Below, piece after piece: positions 13,529-20,834 of a DNA stretch of 45,897 bases (positions are counted from its first letter, which is position 1; each line of letters begins with the position of its first letter). The translations under genes were made by a program, and so were the position numbers. The notes under the pieces were generated by a model. That model had not been told where the DNA came from. It made no database searches and worked only from the letters and a program-made list of their open reading frames with translations. Origin of the DNA: Methanobacteriota archaeon (GTDB lineage Archaea; Thermoplasmatota; Poseidoniia; Poseidoniales; Poseidoniaceae); contig PAOW01000022.1 of assembly GCA_002710015.1 (NCBI GenBank), positions 1 to 45,897 of the forward strand, given 5' to 3'.

Positions 13529-13582
13529 AACGATTATAGGCAGGAGACCAGTGGGTCGAATTAACTGGGGTTGGCTCTTCAA

Positions 13583-14365
13583 ATGTCTCGGGTATTTATC
13601 CGGTATATTCTACCGCTTATGCTTGTGTCGTTAATGCTGCTTCCCGGGTTGAGTAATGCCTATCCAAATGGAATAGGCGGACAACAAGTAAATGCGGGTG
13701 AAACAATCAATGATGTTGCCAAAGAAGGATGTCTTTGTCATGCTGTTGAACCAGACAATTCTGTCATGGTCATACTCGTTGGCGTTCCTTTTGCTTGGGA
13801 TGAAACAGGAGAATACCCCATGAGACTAGAAATTGTCGGAGGACCTGATACCAACATGGGTGGTTTTTCAGCGCGGGTCAGTGCTGGGGAGTTATCTGGT
13901 GATGGAGAGGCATGGGAAGGTGATACTTCAACGCTTACTCACCTGAACTCAAACTCAAGGATATTCAATATTGTTTGGAAGCCACCTGCGAGCGGAGTTG
14001 GGCATGTTGACTTTTGGATCAGCGCAAACGCCGTGAATGGAGCAGAGGGCCCCGCAGGAGATTATTGGAACCAGTTGTTCTTCAACATAGGCGAAAGCGA
14101 GGTCCCAGACGAGAGAGGAACTAAAACACTGATTGCAGGTAGTGGAACACCAGAAGCTCCCGAAAGCAAAGCTGGTGAAATTGATATCTCAACGCTAGGT
14201 GCTGGGTTTAGGGCACACATACTGGGCCTGCTTGGGTTTGGAGCCGTTATAGCAGTAGTTGTATTCTGTGGATTACTTCTCAGATACGGTTTCTCAACCT
14301 CATACAAGGGTAGGAGCAATCTCCTGCGACTGAGATACAAAATTAACAGAAGGGGTGATCAGTAG
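13583..14365 (+). CDS. Secreted, membrane-anchored Reeler/choice-of-anchor-like protein with CxCH motif
   Basis: Signal peptide, KEGCLCHAVEPD motif, beta-rich domain (ETGEYPMRLEIVGG...GGFSARVSAG), C-terminal TM. ORF track starts at TTG 13571; ATG at 13583 also possible. Confidence 0.65.
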   Translation: MSRVFIRYILPLMLVSLMLLPGLSNAYPNGIGGQQVNAGETINDVAKEGCLCHAVEPDNSVMVILVGVPFAWDETGEYPMRLEIVGGPDTNMGGFSARVSAGELSGDGEAWEGDTSTLTHLNSNSRIFNIVWKPPASGVGHVDFWISANAVNGAEGPAGDYWNQLFFNIGESEVPDERGTKTLIAGSGTPEAPESKAGEIDISTLGAGFRAHILGLLGFGAVIAVVVFCGLLLRYGFSTSYKGRSNLLRLRYKINRRGDQ

Positions 14366-14817
14366 TGCCTAAAGACACAATCACCCAACTGCTAGAAAAA
14401 GTAGCATCAGGAAAAGTTAGTGTCAAAGATGCTAGAACTGCATTAGAGGATGCATCGCTCACCGAAGAGCAAATGGACGCAGCAATTAACCACGGTGTTT
14501 TTAATCCCGCTGAACCAGGAACAGTGATTTCTGCTACCCTTGCGCCATCAGGAAAATCCGCATTAACCCTATTCTTCTTCGGATGGGCTATATTCTGGGC
14601 TCTGTATTGGTTTGCAACGTTCCTTTACGGTTTGCTAAATGGCTCAGCTTGGGACAACCAACAACTGGCATTCCATCTTGCAATGGGTCTTACAACCTTG
14701 ATTATGATGGGAATAGTCTACTTGAAATGGGTCCTCCCAGATACTATCATCGTGAAGCATAGCCAAAACAAGTTCATCCCTGAGCACGCAAAGGACTGGA
14801 GAGAATACAAGTGGTGA
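14365..14817 (+). CDS. Small 2-TM membrane protein in cytochrome bc operon
   Basis: GTG start overlapping upstream stop (TAGTG); two hydrophobic helices. Confidence 0.75.
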   Translation: MPKDTITQLLEKVASGKVSVKDARTALEDASLTEEQMDAAINHGVFNPAEPGTVISATLAPSGKSALTLFFFGWAIFWALYWFATFLYGLLNGSAWDNQQLAFHLAMGLTTLIMMGIVYLKWVLPDTIIVKHSQNKFIPEHAKDWREYKW

Positions 14818-14821
14818 TTAC

Positions 14822-15670
14822 ATGGACGATATGAAATTACGACCTGCTCCTGTTTCTGCCGGAGGTGAAAATCCTGCGGGCGGCGAACTCTCTGTAAACA
14901 GAAGACAGTTCATGAGGTATGGTTTCAATACAGCAGCTGGTGTTTTGGCTGCAACGCTGGGAGCGCTAGGATTTGCAGCAATACTGCTTCCACCATCTGG
15001 AGGTGGCGGGGGTGATTCATCCGTTCTCTACTGGGCAAAAGGAAGAGAAGAAGAGGCATGGTATGGCGCAAAGCATCTCCAGCCAATGATGAAATCTGAT
15101 TTTGAATCCGAAGCAGCTAACTCCAATGTAGGCACTGCTGGTGCACAAGGTGTTTGGAACGGACTGCCAGTGATTGTAAATTATGTCCCGCACGCTGAAA
15201 ATTCAGGAACACCCGTTGCAGACAACTCTCCGAGATTCCAGGAAATGGCAGGATACGACATCGGTGGTAACTACGTCGGCCATGCAACTGAATATTTACT
15301 AGGAAATCCAGAAGTTTTCGACCCTAACAACAACCTTGTGATGAGTTTCGCTAGATGCACACACCTGTGTTGCATTCCTGGCTGGCAGCTCGTATCCAAC
15401 TCATTTACAGACGACAATTGGACACCGGGGGGAGGAGATGACGGAGGAACGAAGATGTTCTGTATCTGTCATTCGAGTAGATTCGACCCAACTGCAATTG
15501 AAGTCAATCGAAATGCAAACAGATCTACTGGAGCATCATTTGAATATCTAGGAATAAGAAGAGCCGGAGGGCCAGCACCCGTAGGTTTGCCAATTATTCC
15601 AATAATTATGAATGGCGATGTCATAGAAGCGTCAACAGATTACACGGGCTGGTTGACCTATTGCGACTGA
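14822..15670 (+). CDS. Rieske [2Fe-2S] protein with Tat-type signal
   Basis: NRRQFMRYGF signal; CTHLCC and CICHSSRFDP motifs retain all four ligands and the disulfide cysteines. Confidence 0.9.
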   Translation: MDDMKLRPAPVSAGGENPAGGELSVNRRQFMRYGFNTAAGVLAATLGALGFAAILLPPSGGGGGDSSVLYWAKGREEEAWYGAKHLQPMMKSDFESEAANSNVGTAGAQGVWNGLPVIVNYVPHAENSGTPVADNSPRFQEMAGYDIGGNYVGHATEYLLGNPEVFDPNNNLVMSFARCTHLCCIPGWQLVSNSFTDDNWTPGGGDDGGTKMFCICHSSRFDPTAIEVNRNANRSTGASFEYLGIRRAGGPAPVGLPIIPIIMNGDVIEASTDYTGWLTYCD

Positions 15671-15679
15671 GGTGATTAA

Positions 15680-16546
15680 ATGAGTACGATATTTTGGGTA
15701 TTATGGTTCTTCATAACCTTCATAATTGTCCTTATCGCCTTCACGTTGCGCAAGGAAAACGAGGATATACCAAGAAGAGAGATTTTGAGAGCTGTTGAAA
15801 CCAGCGGTAAGATGGGCTTTGCAGAAAGAACCTTCCTCTGGGTATTCTCTTTCTTAGATACTCGATTTAGAATCCAAGACTATTGGAACATGAGCAAAGG
15901 TGCTTACTATAACATGCACAGGCAGATGCCTTTGACACATGCTGAAAAGTATAAACTGAGAATAATATGGTATTGGTATCCTCTGTATTGTTTAGGAGGT
16001 ATTTCCTTCCTGTCATTCATAATACTAGTGATTACTGGAACCGTTTTGGGTATTTACTATGTCCCAGGCGGAGAGGGCGATCCTTCACCAGCGTATGCTA
16101 GTATGGAATACATAATGACTCAACTTCCGTTCGGTTACATCATAAGAGCTGTTCACCATTGGGGAACACACTTCATGGTTGCATCTGTTTTCTTACACAT
16201 GTGTAGAGTTTATTTCACCGGTGCTTACAGGAACCCAAGAGAATTGAATTGGTTGATAGGAGTTGCATTGATGGCACTGACAATTGTTTTCGGTTACTCA
16301 GGATATCTCTTACCATGGGATACATTAGCCTACGGCGCTGCGGTCATTGGAATTAATCTCGCTAATGCTACACCACTGATTGGGAAATTCGTCGCAACTC
16401 TATTGTTTGCTGGGTCATCACTCACTCCAAGAACAGTAACTAGAATGTATTTCATTCACGTCTTCATTTTACCTGTCATCGTTACTACACTGATTATCAT
16501 ACATTTGTTCATAGTTTGGGTACAAGGAATTGCGGAGCCGCATTGA
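15680..16546 (+). CDS. Cytochrome b N-terminal domain (b6-like)
   Basis: VHHWGTHFMVASVFLHMCRVYFTGAYRNPRELNW, GYSGYLLPWD; helix D IHVFILPVIVTTLIIIH has 14 residues between His, as in cytochrome b6. Confidence 0.93.
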   Translation: MSTIFWVLWFFITFIIVLIAFTLRKENEDIPRREILRAVETSGKMGFAERTFLWVFSFLDTRFRIQDYWNMSKGAYYNMHRQMPLTHAEKYKLRIIWYWYPLYCLGGISFLSFIILVITGTVLGIYYVPGGEGDPSPAYASMEYIMTQLPFGYIIRAVHHWGTHFMVASVFLHMCRVYFTGAYRNPRELNWLIGVALMALTIVFGYSGYLLPWDTLAYGAAVIGINLANATPLIGKFVATLLFAGSSLTPRTVTRMYFIHVFILPVIVTTLIIIHLFIVWVQGIAEPH

Positions 16547-16562
16547 TTAGGAGGTTGGATAT

Positions 16563-19367
16563 ATGGGACTAATTGAGAATCTTGGAGCAGTTGCCTCATC
16601 CTACATGGATGAAAAAGAGCGACTGGAAACCGCTGAGCAGAAGCGTAAGCGTACGAGGTCAGGACATGGATTTTGGCCACATGAGGTATTACGTGATACG
16701 CTAATCTTTGGATTCATGGCATGTGTCCTACTATTCTATGCATGGCTAATCCCTCCACCATTACACAGTGCAGCTGATCCTTTCGCTCAAGCAGGATTCG
16801 TTTTCCCAGACTGGTATGTGTTGTTTTCCTATGGATACTTAAGATGGGGAGAATACCTACCACAATTTGATGTTCCTTTAGGACCAATCGGGGACTTCTT
16901 TGGACAACCAGCGTTCCCATGGAACGCAGCATGGTGGGGAGCATTCCTGACTGGAATCCCAGTAGGTATTCTAGCACTACCACCATTCCTTGGCGGTAGA
17001 GAGAAAAGACCTGTTGAAGACCCATGGTTCGCTAGCGCAGGTGTCGTTTACTTAGCACATATATGGTTCATATCCATATTTTCAATCAACATTTTCCTAG
17101 AGTTATATGGTAAGAACAGAACTGATTATTGTAAATTGGATAGTCACGGTGATTTGTTGTGTGGAACAAGAGATCCATGGATTGCGGACCTGTTCAATTC
17201 TATCCCTTGGGGTATGACTGGAATTTTATTATGGATTGTGATATACTTCGTTGCAAAATGGATATTCAACAACGCCTGGGGTGCTAGGTTTACTCCAGCA
17301 CACGGAAAGAAACTGGTAATCGGTGCATTCATCGTTGCTACCGCTGCAACTGTTGTAACGTATCCTGTTTATGACAATGGATTCTGGGATGCCAAAGGAC
17401 TGCTAACCATCGCAGATTATCAGGAATTAGAAGATATGAGATCTCAACCTACCGATGTTCATGTTCATGAAAGGAATGAATTCATGGACGCTCAAGGATT
17501 TGAAGGAGACGTAGTTCCAGCTGCTGCTTGGATGAATTGGAACATATACCAACCGGCTAGATACTATATGATTGATTTCGCCGATAACAATGGGCATCAG
17601 AACTTGGATGATGGTTTGAACGGAGCGACTGGCCTATTCAATTACACTGCCGATGGAAACACAGATACTACTGGAGAATTCACTATCACTGAAGAGCACT
17701 GGCCTGATGACATTGAATTCACAACAGTCCCAGTCGATGCAACTTGTGAGACTAGAGCAAGTGAAGTCATAATTGATGGTGGAGACTCTACGTCTAAAAT
17801 GATTCAATCTAGCTTAGTTATCAAAGAAAAGGACAGCGGTAAGGTTGTCATTGATACGGATTGTAATACTGGTGAGACTGGAATTGAGCTTGGTAGTGGA
17901 GAATACACCTACGAATTCTTTGTAGAGTCAACCGACGGTCTGAAGACTAATTCAAGTGTTTTAGTTGAGACTACATTCATGGTCAAGGCATTCCAGCCAT
18001 TACTCCTATTCCATGACGATGCAGGCAATGGCCTGGCAATGCACACTGTAGATGTAAACAACCTTACGGCGTTGTCCTTAGAAGCCGGTAAATTTGGTGT
18101 CGTAGAAAATCCAACCTATCATGCCAACCCCAAGGCACTAGATGCTAAGCTAACATATGCAATGTTCATTCCTTGTATAACAGCAGGCGCTATCGTATTT
18201 GTCATCCTTAGAAACATGGCTAGAGGATATGAATTTGAAATGAACAAATGTTACGGATGCGATCTTTGTGATGATGCATGTCCTGTACGATTGTTCAATG
18301 CTGGAGACAAATTGAACATCATCTATAACTCGTGGAACAACGAAGATGACGGTGTTCCGTTATACTCTTGTCTCACTTGCACAGCCTGTACTAACGCATG
18401 CCCACAATTAGTGGACTATGATTCATATGTTGATATCAGAAGGTCTCTGATTGTTGGAGGTCCTGCTGCTGAAATTCCTCACACTGTTCTACAAGCTGTC
18501 TTAGCGGCAGAAGCTGAAGATGAAAGCGACGTAGATTTCGTATCGGTTGAAGACTATCCAATCGACTCGAACATAGGATACTACCCCGGCTGTGTCGACT
18601 ACTTAGACCAAGAAATGGTGTTCAGCCATCTAAACGAAGGAGAAATGAACCTAGGAGAGACAACCAATGCAGCATTCACACTGTTCGAAGAAATGGGGAC
18701 AGATGTTTCGTATCTGGGCCGTGATTTCTTGAAGTGTTGTGGTCATGACCAGAAATGGCAAGGTCTCGATGAAGTTTTCAATAAGTTGAAGGCTTACAAT
18801 CAAAAGAAGATTGAAGCGTCAGGAATAGATACCCTAGTATCTTCTTGCGCAGAATGTTTCAGAACCTTTGCTAGAGACTACGAATTAGATGGCGTAAAGG
18901 TCATGCACACGACAGAATTCCTTATCGAAAACGGATTTGATATGGAAATGAAGGCTGAAAACGATTTAACTGTAACATATCACGACCCTTGTAGACTTGG
19001 AAGACAAATGGGAATTTACGAAGAACCACGGCAATTGGTAGCTGGCGTTGAAGGTGTTGAACTTGTTGAAATGGAACATCACGGTGAGGATGCAATGTGC
19101 TGTGGTGTTTCAAGCATGATGTCATGCAATGAGAATGCAAGAGCATTGAGAGTCTCAAGAATGGAAGAAATAAGAAACACAGGAGCAGATATGATGATCA
19201 CTTCTTGTCCTAAGTGTGTTTCACACATGGAATGTCTGAAATTTGAGGGTGACGAGAGACATGATATCGAAATTCTGGACATCGTTTCGTTCCTAGCAAG
19301 GCAAGTTCAAGCCAAGAAATCGATGGTTGAAGAACTATCTACGGCACAGGTTTCTGTCGAAGCATGA
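16563..19367 (+). CDS. Fusion: cytochrome b C-terminal/subunit IV-like domain + extracytoplasmic domain + dicluster ferredoxin + two CCG (HdrB/HdrD/GlpC-type) domains
   Basis: FWPHEVLRDTLIF and PDWYVLFSY (subunit IV-like); CYGCDLCDDACP and CLTCTACTNACP; CCG motifs (YYPGC...KCCGHD...SSCAEC) and (HDPC...MCCGVS...SCPKC). Confidence 0.92.
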   Translation: MGLIENLGAVASSYMDEKERLETAEQKRKRTRSGHGFWPHEVLRDTLIFGFMACVLLFYAWLIPPPLHSAADPFAQAGFVFPDWYVLFSYGYLRWGEYLPQFDVPLGPIGDFFGQPAFPWNAAWWGAFLTGIPVGILALPPFLGGREKRPVEDPWFASAGVVYLAHIWFISIFSINIFLELYGKNRTDYCKLDSHGDLLCGTRDPWIADLFNSIPWGMTGILLWIVIYFVAKWIFNNAWGARFTPAHGKKLVIGAFIVATAATVVTYPVYDNGFWDAKGLLTIADYQELEDMRSQPTDVHVHERNEFMDAQGFEGDVVPAAAWMNWNIYQPARYYMIDFADNNGHQNLDDGLNGATGLFNYTADGNTDTTGEFTITEEHWPDDIEFTTVPVDATCETRASEVIIDGGDSTSKMIQSSLVIKEKDSGKVVIDTDCNTGETGIELGSGEYTYEFFVESTDGLKTNSSVLVETTFMVKAFQPLLLFHDDAGNGLAMHTVDVNNLTALSLEAGKFGVVENPTYHANPKALDAKLTYAMFIPCITAGAIVFVILRNMARGYEFEMNKCYGCDLCDDACPVRLFNAGDKLNIIYNSWNNEDDGVPLYSCLTCTACTNACPQLVDYDSYVDIRRSLIVGGPAAEIPHTVLQAVLAAEAEDESDVDFVSVEDYPIDSNIGYYPGCVDYLDQEMVFSHLNEGEMNLGETTNAAFTLFEEMGTDVSYLGRDFLKCCGHDQKWQGLDEVFNKLKAYNQKKIEASGIDTLVSSCAECFRTFARDYELDGVKVMHTTEFLIENGFDMEMKAENDLTVTYHDPCRLGRQMGIYEEPRQLVAGVEGVELVEMEHHGEDAMCCGVSSMMSCNENARALRVSRMEEIRNTGADMMITSCPKCVSHMECLKFEGDERHDIEILDIVSFLARQVQAKKSMVEELSTAQVSVEA

Positions 19368-20214: not shown

Positions 20215-20505
20215 TTATTCAGGTGTCGAGTCGTCATCCATTCCACGGATTTCATAATTCGACGGAAACATAGCAACGATTACTCCTGCGATTAGAAATC
20301 CTAACCCATACCCAAACTTCTGTTCCACAAATAGAAACTCGAGAGCAAACACAACTAACAACAAACCACCAATGTTTGAAACCCATACAAGTGTTTTGAA
20401 AGTCGATAAAGATACACCAGTTGTATTTGGACGTCGCAGTGGGCCAAATTCACCGCCAAAGCGCTGAGCGCCCTCATGTTCAGGAGGTTTTGCCATTGCA
20501 ATCAC
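20215..20505 (-). CDS. Small 2-TM membrane protein
   Basis: Two hydrophobic helices; overlaps upstream ferredoxin ORF. Confidence 0.65.
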   Translation of the reverse strand: MIAMAKPPEHEGAQRFGGEFGPLRRPNTTGVSLSTFKTLVWVSNIGGLLLVVFALEFLFVEQKFGYGLGFLIAGVIVAMFPSNYEIRGMDDDSTPE

Positions 20506-20834
20506 CTGTCTATCATAGTGATTGCATCAGTTGGGCATGATAGAACACAAAGACGACATCCTGTGCAAGCATCACGTATGATTTTCGCTTTCCGATTACT
20601 TGGAACATTCATTAGAGGAGAAGCCATTTCTTTAGCATATAGGTCAATCGCAGAGTCGTCACATACAATAGTACATTGGTCACATCCAATACAGAGGTTC
20701 TCCTTCACCCATGCAACAGTTGTTTCGCCACCTTTTATGGTTGAGCGGCGCTCACCTTTTTGCCTAGCCAAGGAGATTGCAATACGCTCAGACTCTGCTG
20801 CGCGCCGCCTTTGTAACTCCTGAAGAGAGGTCAT
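20502..20834 (-). CDS. 2[4Fe-4S] ferredoxin-type protein
   Basis: CIGCDQCTIVCD and CTGCRLCVLSCP. Confidence 0.9.
   Translation of the reverse strand: MTSLQELQRRRAAESERIAISLARQKGERRSTIKGGETTVAWVKENLCIGCDQCTIVCDDSAIDLYAKEMASPLMNVPSNRKAKIIRDACTGCRLCVLSCPTDAITMIDR

Follow-up and report, generated by a model that had tools for sequence, protein, structure and literature searches.

Members of the Poseidoniales encode, within the gene cluster of a Rieske/cytochrome b complex of the b6f type, a single-chain protein in which a subunit IV-like membrane part is joined to a dicluster ferredoxin and two HdrD-like CCG domains. We describe this fusion protein in a stretch of 45,897 nucleotides (the window) from an archaeon of the family Poseidoniaceae, comprising positions 1 to 45,897 of contig PAOW01000022.1 in assembly GCA_002710015.1, a 1.7-Mb draft genome in 41 contigs that is 82% complete (G000). 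As read from the open reading frame list and its translation, the fusion occupies positions 16563-19367 of the forward strand as a single unbroken frame of 934 residues with an ATG start. The reading that we consider most likely, but that could about equally well be wrong, is a b6f-type complex carrying an HdrD-like cytosolic wire, with ferredoxin as its partner and a net flow of electrons from ferredoxin to quinone; more broadly, complex III of the Poseidoniales probably exchanges electrons with ferredoxin besides its usual carrier on the outer side. If true, this would provide a definite model for how uncultured marine archaea with a complex I that seemingly lacks an NADH module make use of ferredoxin, and a natural, hard-wired case of an old question, namely whether a b6f-type complex can receive electrons from ferredoxin on its n-side.

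Architecture and conservation of the fusion

An initial annotation of the window had described a subunit IV-like part, five transmembrane helices, a hydrophilic segment, a further helix, a dicluster ferredoxin and two CCG domains, and this description is borne out by the reading frame, Pfam and hydropathy; the hydrophilic segment is present, but its limits shift from 17370-18120 to about 17373-18134. Along the chain, the subunit IV-like part is followed by two extra helices, an extracytoplasmic beta domain, a last helix, the dicluster ferredoxin and two complete CCG domains. Pfam recognizes two CCG stretches (1e-24) and a dicluster Fer4 at residues 559-615. Its Cytochrom_B_C model makes no call on the window protein itself but matches distant homologues (L076, 7.8e-10; L062, 1.4e-4), and family profiles of the fusion match b6f subunit IV chains in the PDB (1q90_D, 4.6e-5; 2e74_B, 5.3e-5) as well as cytochrome b C-terminal chains. 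Hydropathy gives five helices, an acidic segment (residues 270-529), the last helix (530-548) and a tail of 386 residues, and residues 270-464 hold 10 lysines and arginines against 39 aspartates and glutamates; hydropathy and charge together suggest that residues of about 270-529 lie outside and that the C-terminal tail is cytosolic. A weak further hydropathy peak (465-483) falls within the modelled beta domain. The AlphaFold model of the whole chain is middling (predicted local distance difference test, pLDDT, 68.5; predicted template-modelling score, pTM, 0.49) and poor in the ferredoxin region, while the outer domain is modelled as beta-rich with a pLDDT of about 90 across roughly residues 340-510. 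Its fold matches are weak (GOLD domain, E about 1e-3), and the domain was seen in Poseidoniales only.

The fusion is the last of five co-directional genes, with overlaps or gaps of at most 16 bp, that encode a choice-of-anchor V protein, a DUF7318-like protein, a Rieske protein, a cytochrome b6 and the fusion itself; the same cluster is found in nearly all loci. Likeness to b6f complexes (PetB/PetD/PetC) lies in a four-helix cytochrome b with a separate subunit IV, a Rieske protein, a P-x-W-Y motif, the haem ci cysteine and the spacing of the histidine pairs, which is 14 and 15 in the window and its homologues (motif table). The haem ci cysteine (YCLGG) occurs in the window and in all Poseidoniales rows, and is also conserved in G084 and in G093/G098, and the Rieske proteins have both cluster boxes, the second reading SSRF or SSRY. 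The Poseidoniales complex differs from b6f in reading PDWY instead of PEWY (PDWY is invariant in 38 of 38 aligned fusion homologues, and a literature search pairing the two motifs gave no match), in having no recognized cytochrome f gene in the cluster, and in a subunit IV to which two helices, an outer domain and an HdrD-like arm have been added.

A match to the fusion is present in 59 of 61 relatives, although in a few of these a CCG paralogue is the only match. Across 394 Thermoplasmatota genomes, 124 of the Poseidoniales match the subunit IV part, about 108 of them (by manual count of the table) with an open frame of at least 900 residues, and most of the others appear to stop at contig edges. 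Frames of about 930 residues are unbroken in both Poseidoniales families, and a scan of public contigs, which retained almost only Poseidoniales loci and so reaches essentially within Thermoplasmatota, recovered this protein also from genomes whose titles mark them as single-cell isolates (AH-273-F07, AH-287-P07 and AG-333-I22). A plasmid search returned partial matches only: each covers less than 80% of the query, and the ten that are shown lie in the Fer4/CCG part. Frame breaks do exist in three draft genomes (G005, G041 and G402), as a misassembled or chance joining might produce, but each is at a different place; with the frame conserved across so many genomes, single-cell ones included, we rejected this explanation as next to impossible. 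Homologues consistently split into separate genes, which the initial annotation had named as a sign against the fusion, are not the pattern observed: fusion is the rule in Poseidoniales, and a sister family of the same class (f3) that splits the parts across genes still keeps them in one gene run. The proposed joining of a bc/b6f-like complex to an Hdr-like cytosolic module is thus supported, and it is conserved across the order. When the two families are compared, the ferredoxin region is 93% identical to that of the window protein; the figure falls to 79% for the subunit IV core, 73-81% for the CCG domains and 33% for the outer domain, which indicates that the redox parts are under the strongest constraint.

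Ligands and phylogeny of the CCG module

As in HdrD (of HdrDE) and HdrBC, a dicluster ferredoxin precedes two CCG domains of five cysteines each, and all ten are present. The fusion differs from Hdr in that subunit IV of a Rieske/cytochrome b complex, instead of HdrE, makes up its membrane part, and in that its hosts are aerobic archaea for which no coenzyme M/coenzyme B substrate is expected. Among 38 homologues, every one of these cysteines is invariant, eight in the ferredoxin and ten in the CCG domains, except C726, which is retained in 37; serine takes its place in L182 and, among the three f3 sequences read, in L070 and L071. The best PDB match of the CCG module, both by sequence (2.7e-35) and by fold, is EtfD of M. 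smegmatis (9ojn), likewise a single chain with a membrane part, two cubanes and two CCG domains; the fold search also matches HdrB. EtfD has one Hdr cysteine replaced by Thr539 and His583 added, its clusters (a linear [3Fe-4S] and a shielded noncubane cluster) are non-catalytic and shielded, and it holds one b haem (PMC13083937). Aligned to 9ojn, the fusion, which belongs to a Rieske complex, has Cys726 at the threonine and Glu764 at the histidine; Glu764 is invariant in the 38 homologues, and the motif reads CAEC as against CPHC.

Another CCG protein of the same genome (L194) matches 9ojn at 2.4e-94, carries both EtfD marks (GCTGD and CPHC) and groups in the tree with EtfD-like proteins outside the clade of bc-linked proteins; the fusion is therefore Hdr-like in its ligands, and another protein already fills the role of EtfD. 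That the fusion is an ETF:quinone oxidoreductase, taking electrons from ETF as EtfD does, would fit its closest PDB match but is very improbable for a protein without both EtfD marks in a genome with a separate EtfD, and ETF was rejected as the partner on these grounds. The initial annotation had left the partner as a disulfide, a flavoprotein or another carrier: the gene neighbours favour a ferredoxin or a protein in its place, and the flavoprotein ETF is unlikely because of the separate EtfD.

In the tree, a single clade (100/98) unites the CCG parts of every bc-linked protein and lies apart from the EtfD-like proteins, which favours a single origin of the link with fusion and splitting occurring later; L045 and L193_0 are bc-linked but unlabelled, hence the three changes counted, and long branches advise caution. 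The sister of this clade is a protein of G093 and G098 with a 541-residue frame. This protein (L192 in G093, L191 in G098) has a CCGHD motif and a ferredoxin match nearby. Shorter fusions occur in two distant Thermoplasmatota lineages: G084 has a 789-residue fusion without the outer domain, followed by a ferredoxin, and G093 and G098 have a shorter one (606 residues in G093) followed by an HdrA-like protein, joined in G098 to an FlpD domain. The f3 run comprises genes for choice-of-anchor V, DUF7318 (without a match in some loci), Rieske, cytochrome b, subunit IV with dicluster ferredoxin, a CCG protein and a flavodoxin-ferredoxin fusion. The last closes the run (5287-6276 in L070, with the same gene in other f3 loci, although L072 ends before it) and is possibly a single-chain electron carrier.

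Partner and direction of electron flow

The neighbouring genes suggest a ferredoxin, a flavodoxin-ferredoxin or an HdrA-like protein as the cytosolic partner. In each of the 20 f2 loci fetched, a ferredoxin gene lies 3' of the fusion and is co-directional with it; among 80 public loci, it is adjacent on either strand in 71 (71 of the 75 with enough downstream sequence), in most cases on the strand opposite to the fusion, as in the window. Five of the nine others end 118 to 1081 bp past the fusion, and the remaining four (L108, L111, L112 and L115) have 2.8-7 kb downstream without a ferredoxin; within the stretches fetched, none of nine stand-alone subunit IV loci showed a match to ferredoxin or CCG. 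The ferredoxin beside the window fusion has rnfB as its best NCBIfam model (2e-12), at 47 bits against a cut-off of 68.7, and so is an RnfB-like ferredoxin only. Marine group II (MGII) genomes have been described as having cytochrome b and Rieske but no canonical bc1, together with an orphan RnfB, its partners RnfACDEG being reported absent (PMC6336850). Since an RnfB-like gene adjoins the fusion, the cytochrome b/Rieske proteins and the orphan RnfB may belong to one machine; by our own inference, the RnfB of that study may be the ferredoxin described here.

The metabolic setting is consistent with such a partner. The 2-oxoacid:ferredoxin oxidoreductase (POR) was found in 38 of 41 relatives, and NuoF in only two of these (G004 and G045) and in none of 12 good genomes, while NuoD is present in 19 of 21; complex I therefore seems to lack the NADH module in most genomes and probably does not use NADH directly, and ferredoxin is probably a main carrier. 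MGII complex I has been called canonical, and an aerobic life with a low-affinity terminal oxidase has been described for the Poseidoniales (PMC6336850). Blue copper proteins were found in 19 of 21 genomes and cytochrome c assembly proteins in 21 of 21, so the outer-side acceptor could be either.

In b6f complexes, haem ci and the Qn site lie on the cytosolic (n) side. The genes at 13571-19367 would then encode a b6f-type Rieske/cytochrome b complex whose subunit IV bears an HdrD-like wire of two [4Fe-4S] cubanes and two CCG clusters, placed on the cytosolic side near the Qn site and haem ci position. Ferredoxin, reduced by 2-oxoacid:ferredoxin oxidoreductases (the adjacent RnfB-like protein acting as the soluble partner), would pass electrons through the CCG and ferredoxin clusters to haem ci and Qn, where quinone would be reduced; the quinol would then be oxidized at Qo, with electrons going to the Rieske protein. 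A wire function is suggested by the structure of EtfD, in which a similar chain of clusters links a cytosolic carrier through a b haem to menaquinone (PMC13083937), and the conserved ferredoxin neighbour makes flow from ferredoxin to quinone the simplest reading.

Several points weigh against it. Passing electrons from ferredoxin to menaquinone wastes much free energy; complex I, seemingly without its NADH module, may oxidize ferredoxin already; and there is no obvious need for Hdr-type clusters if ferredoxin merely feeds in. The ferredoxin gene is on the strand opposite to the fusion, and so is not co-transcribed with it, in most f1 loci, that of the window among them, and four f3 loci (L070-L073) keep the CCG and flavodoxin-ferredoxin parts yet have serine in place of the haem ci cysteine. 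Electrons might instead run the other way, in a scheme that we judge somewhat unlikely: menaquinol would be bifurcated at Qo, one electron passing via the Rieske protein towards O2, while the second would travel through the b haems and along the HdrD-like wire to reduce a low-potential acceptor, ferredoxin or another, yielding low-potential reductant paid for in proton pumping. Bifurcation has been put forward for a pair of anammox Rieske/cytochrome b complexes that have a cytosolic NAD(P) oxidoreductase, by authors who dismiss the opposite direction as wasteful (PMC12954380), and both the aerobic life of the Poseidoniales and the HdrA-like/FlpD protein 3' of the fusion in G098 would suit it. 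The conserved haem ci cysteine, on the other hand, suggests an ordinary Qn site, and the 2-oxoacid:ferredoxin oxidoreductases suggest that ferredoxin is made in surplus. There is a limited chance that the standard complex III of this archaeal group, among the most abundant in the surface ocean, performs O2-driven quinol bifurcation through Hdr-type clusters onto ferredoxin or a cytosolic disulfide. Quite unlikely, in our estimate, is a disulfide reductase driven by quinol or ferredoxin (or a thiol oxidase), in which the CCG clusters would act on a cytosolic disulfide as in Hdr. The ten conserved CCG cysteines, with C726 and Glu764 where EtfD has threonine and histidine, and the HdrB fold matches are compatible with it; but the ferredoxin link persists where C726 has become serine (L182, L070 and L071), a thiol/disulfide gene is never a conserved neighbour among the genes traced, and beyond the cysteine set the idea finds no support here.

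Flow from ferredoxin to quinone has a precedent in Candidatus Angelarchaeales, for which hdrD-like and rnfB-like genes beside complex III led to the same ferredoxin-entry proposal in 2022 (PMC9038741). The set of parts is the same, but there they are reported as nearby genes, in archaea of a different taxonomic order, and that study does not treat a fusion, the ligands or the distribution; the Angelarchaeales hdrD-like gene may itself be such a fusion. The anammox complexes (Kuste4569-4574 and Kustd1480-1485) share a b6-like complex, a cytosolic redox module and a possible bifurcation outlet, and differ in that the module is an FAD/NAD(P) oxidoreductase, not HdrD-like, with multihaem cytochromes c on the other side (PMC12954380). 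The individual parts are known, and hdrD-like and rnfB-like genes have already been reported alongside complex III; in the open-access papers searched we found no description of the fusion, its conservation across the order, its Hdr-type ligand set or its possible link to the MGII orphan RnfB.

Cluster features and minor observations

Features of the window in and beside the gene cluster, with the basis of each assignment.
Feature	Position	Strand	Basis
Choice-of-anchor V domain protein, GCxCH motif, C-terminal helix, first cluster gene	13571..14365	+	NCBIfam NF041895 1.1e-16
DUF7318-like small membrane subunit	14365..14817	+	weak Pfam match (0.0038) in window; L071 homologue 3.4e-12; same place in gene order
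Rieske [2Fe-2S] protein, CTHLCC ... CICHSSRFD	14822..15670	+	TIGR01416 4.1e-7; motifs conserved
Cytochrome b6-type N-half, four haem histidines, haem ci cysteine (YCLGG)	15680..16546	+	Pfam Cytochrome_B 1.2e-42; ExtP/b6 models; motif table
Fusion: subunit IV + extracytoplasmic domain + dicluster ferredoxin + two CCG domains	16563..19367	+	open reading frame, Pfam, homologue alignments
Subunit IV core, residues 36-180, Qo motif PDWY	16668..17102	+	b6f subunit IV/cytochrome b matches
Extracytoplasmic domain, residues 271-524, beta-rich	17373..18134	+	alignment; structure model
Dicluster ferredoxin (HdrC-like) region, residues 556-630, eight invariant Cys	18228..18452	+	Pfam, profile matches, alignment
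Two CCG domains, residues 671-915, ten Cys of Hdr type	18573..19307	+	Pfam, alignment, fold match, tree
96-residue small membrane protein paired with ferredoxin gene	20215..20505	-	co-occurrence across loci
2[4Fe-4S] ferredoxin, RnfB-like, proposed partner	20502..20834	-	Pfam Fer4_21 5.5e-14; conserved neighbour

The choice-of-anchor V gene leads the run in nearly all loci, and its CxCH motif is present in 94 of 100 matches (GCLCH in the window). No cytochrome f or c1 subunit was recognized within the gene cluster, and the GCxCH motif is possibly an unusual c-haem or metal site, a candidate to stand in for cytochrome f/c1. The motif, near the N-terminus, is also conserved in L070, L071, L073, L063 and L065, and L068 has a single cysteine there (ATCH).

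At the haem ci position of cytochrome b, f3 loci have serine in L070-L073 and cysteine in L074 and L075. In G084 and G093/G098 (L062/L082, L076 and L081), the N-half of cytochrome b is fused at its N-terminus to a lengthy extracytoplasmic part; in L076 this part was recognized as Big_5 Ig-like repeats. The 96-residue membrane protein has no Pfam match; in 92 of its 93 loci the ferredoxin is also present, invariably in the same orientation and mostly no more than 50 bp away.
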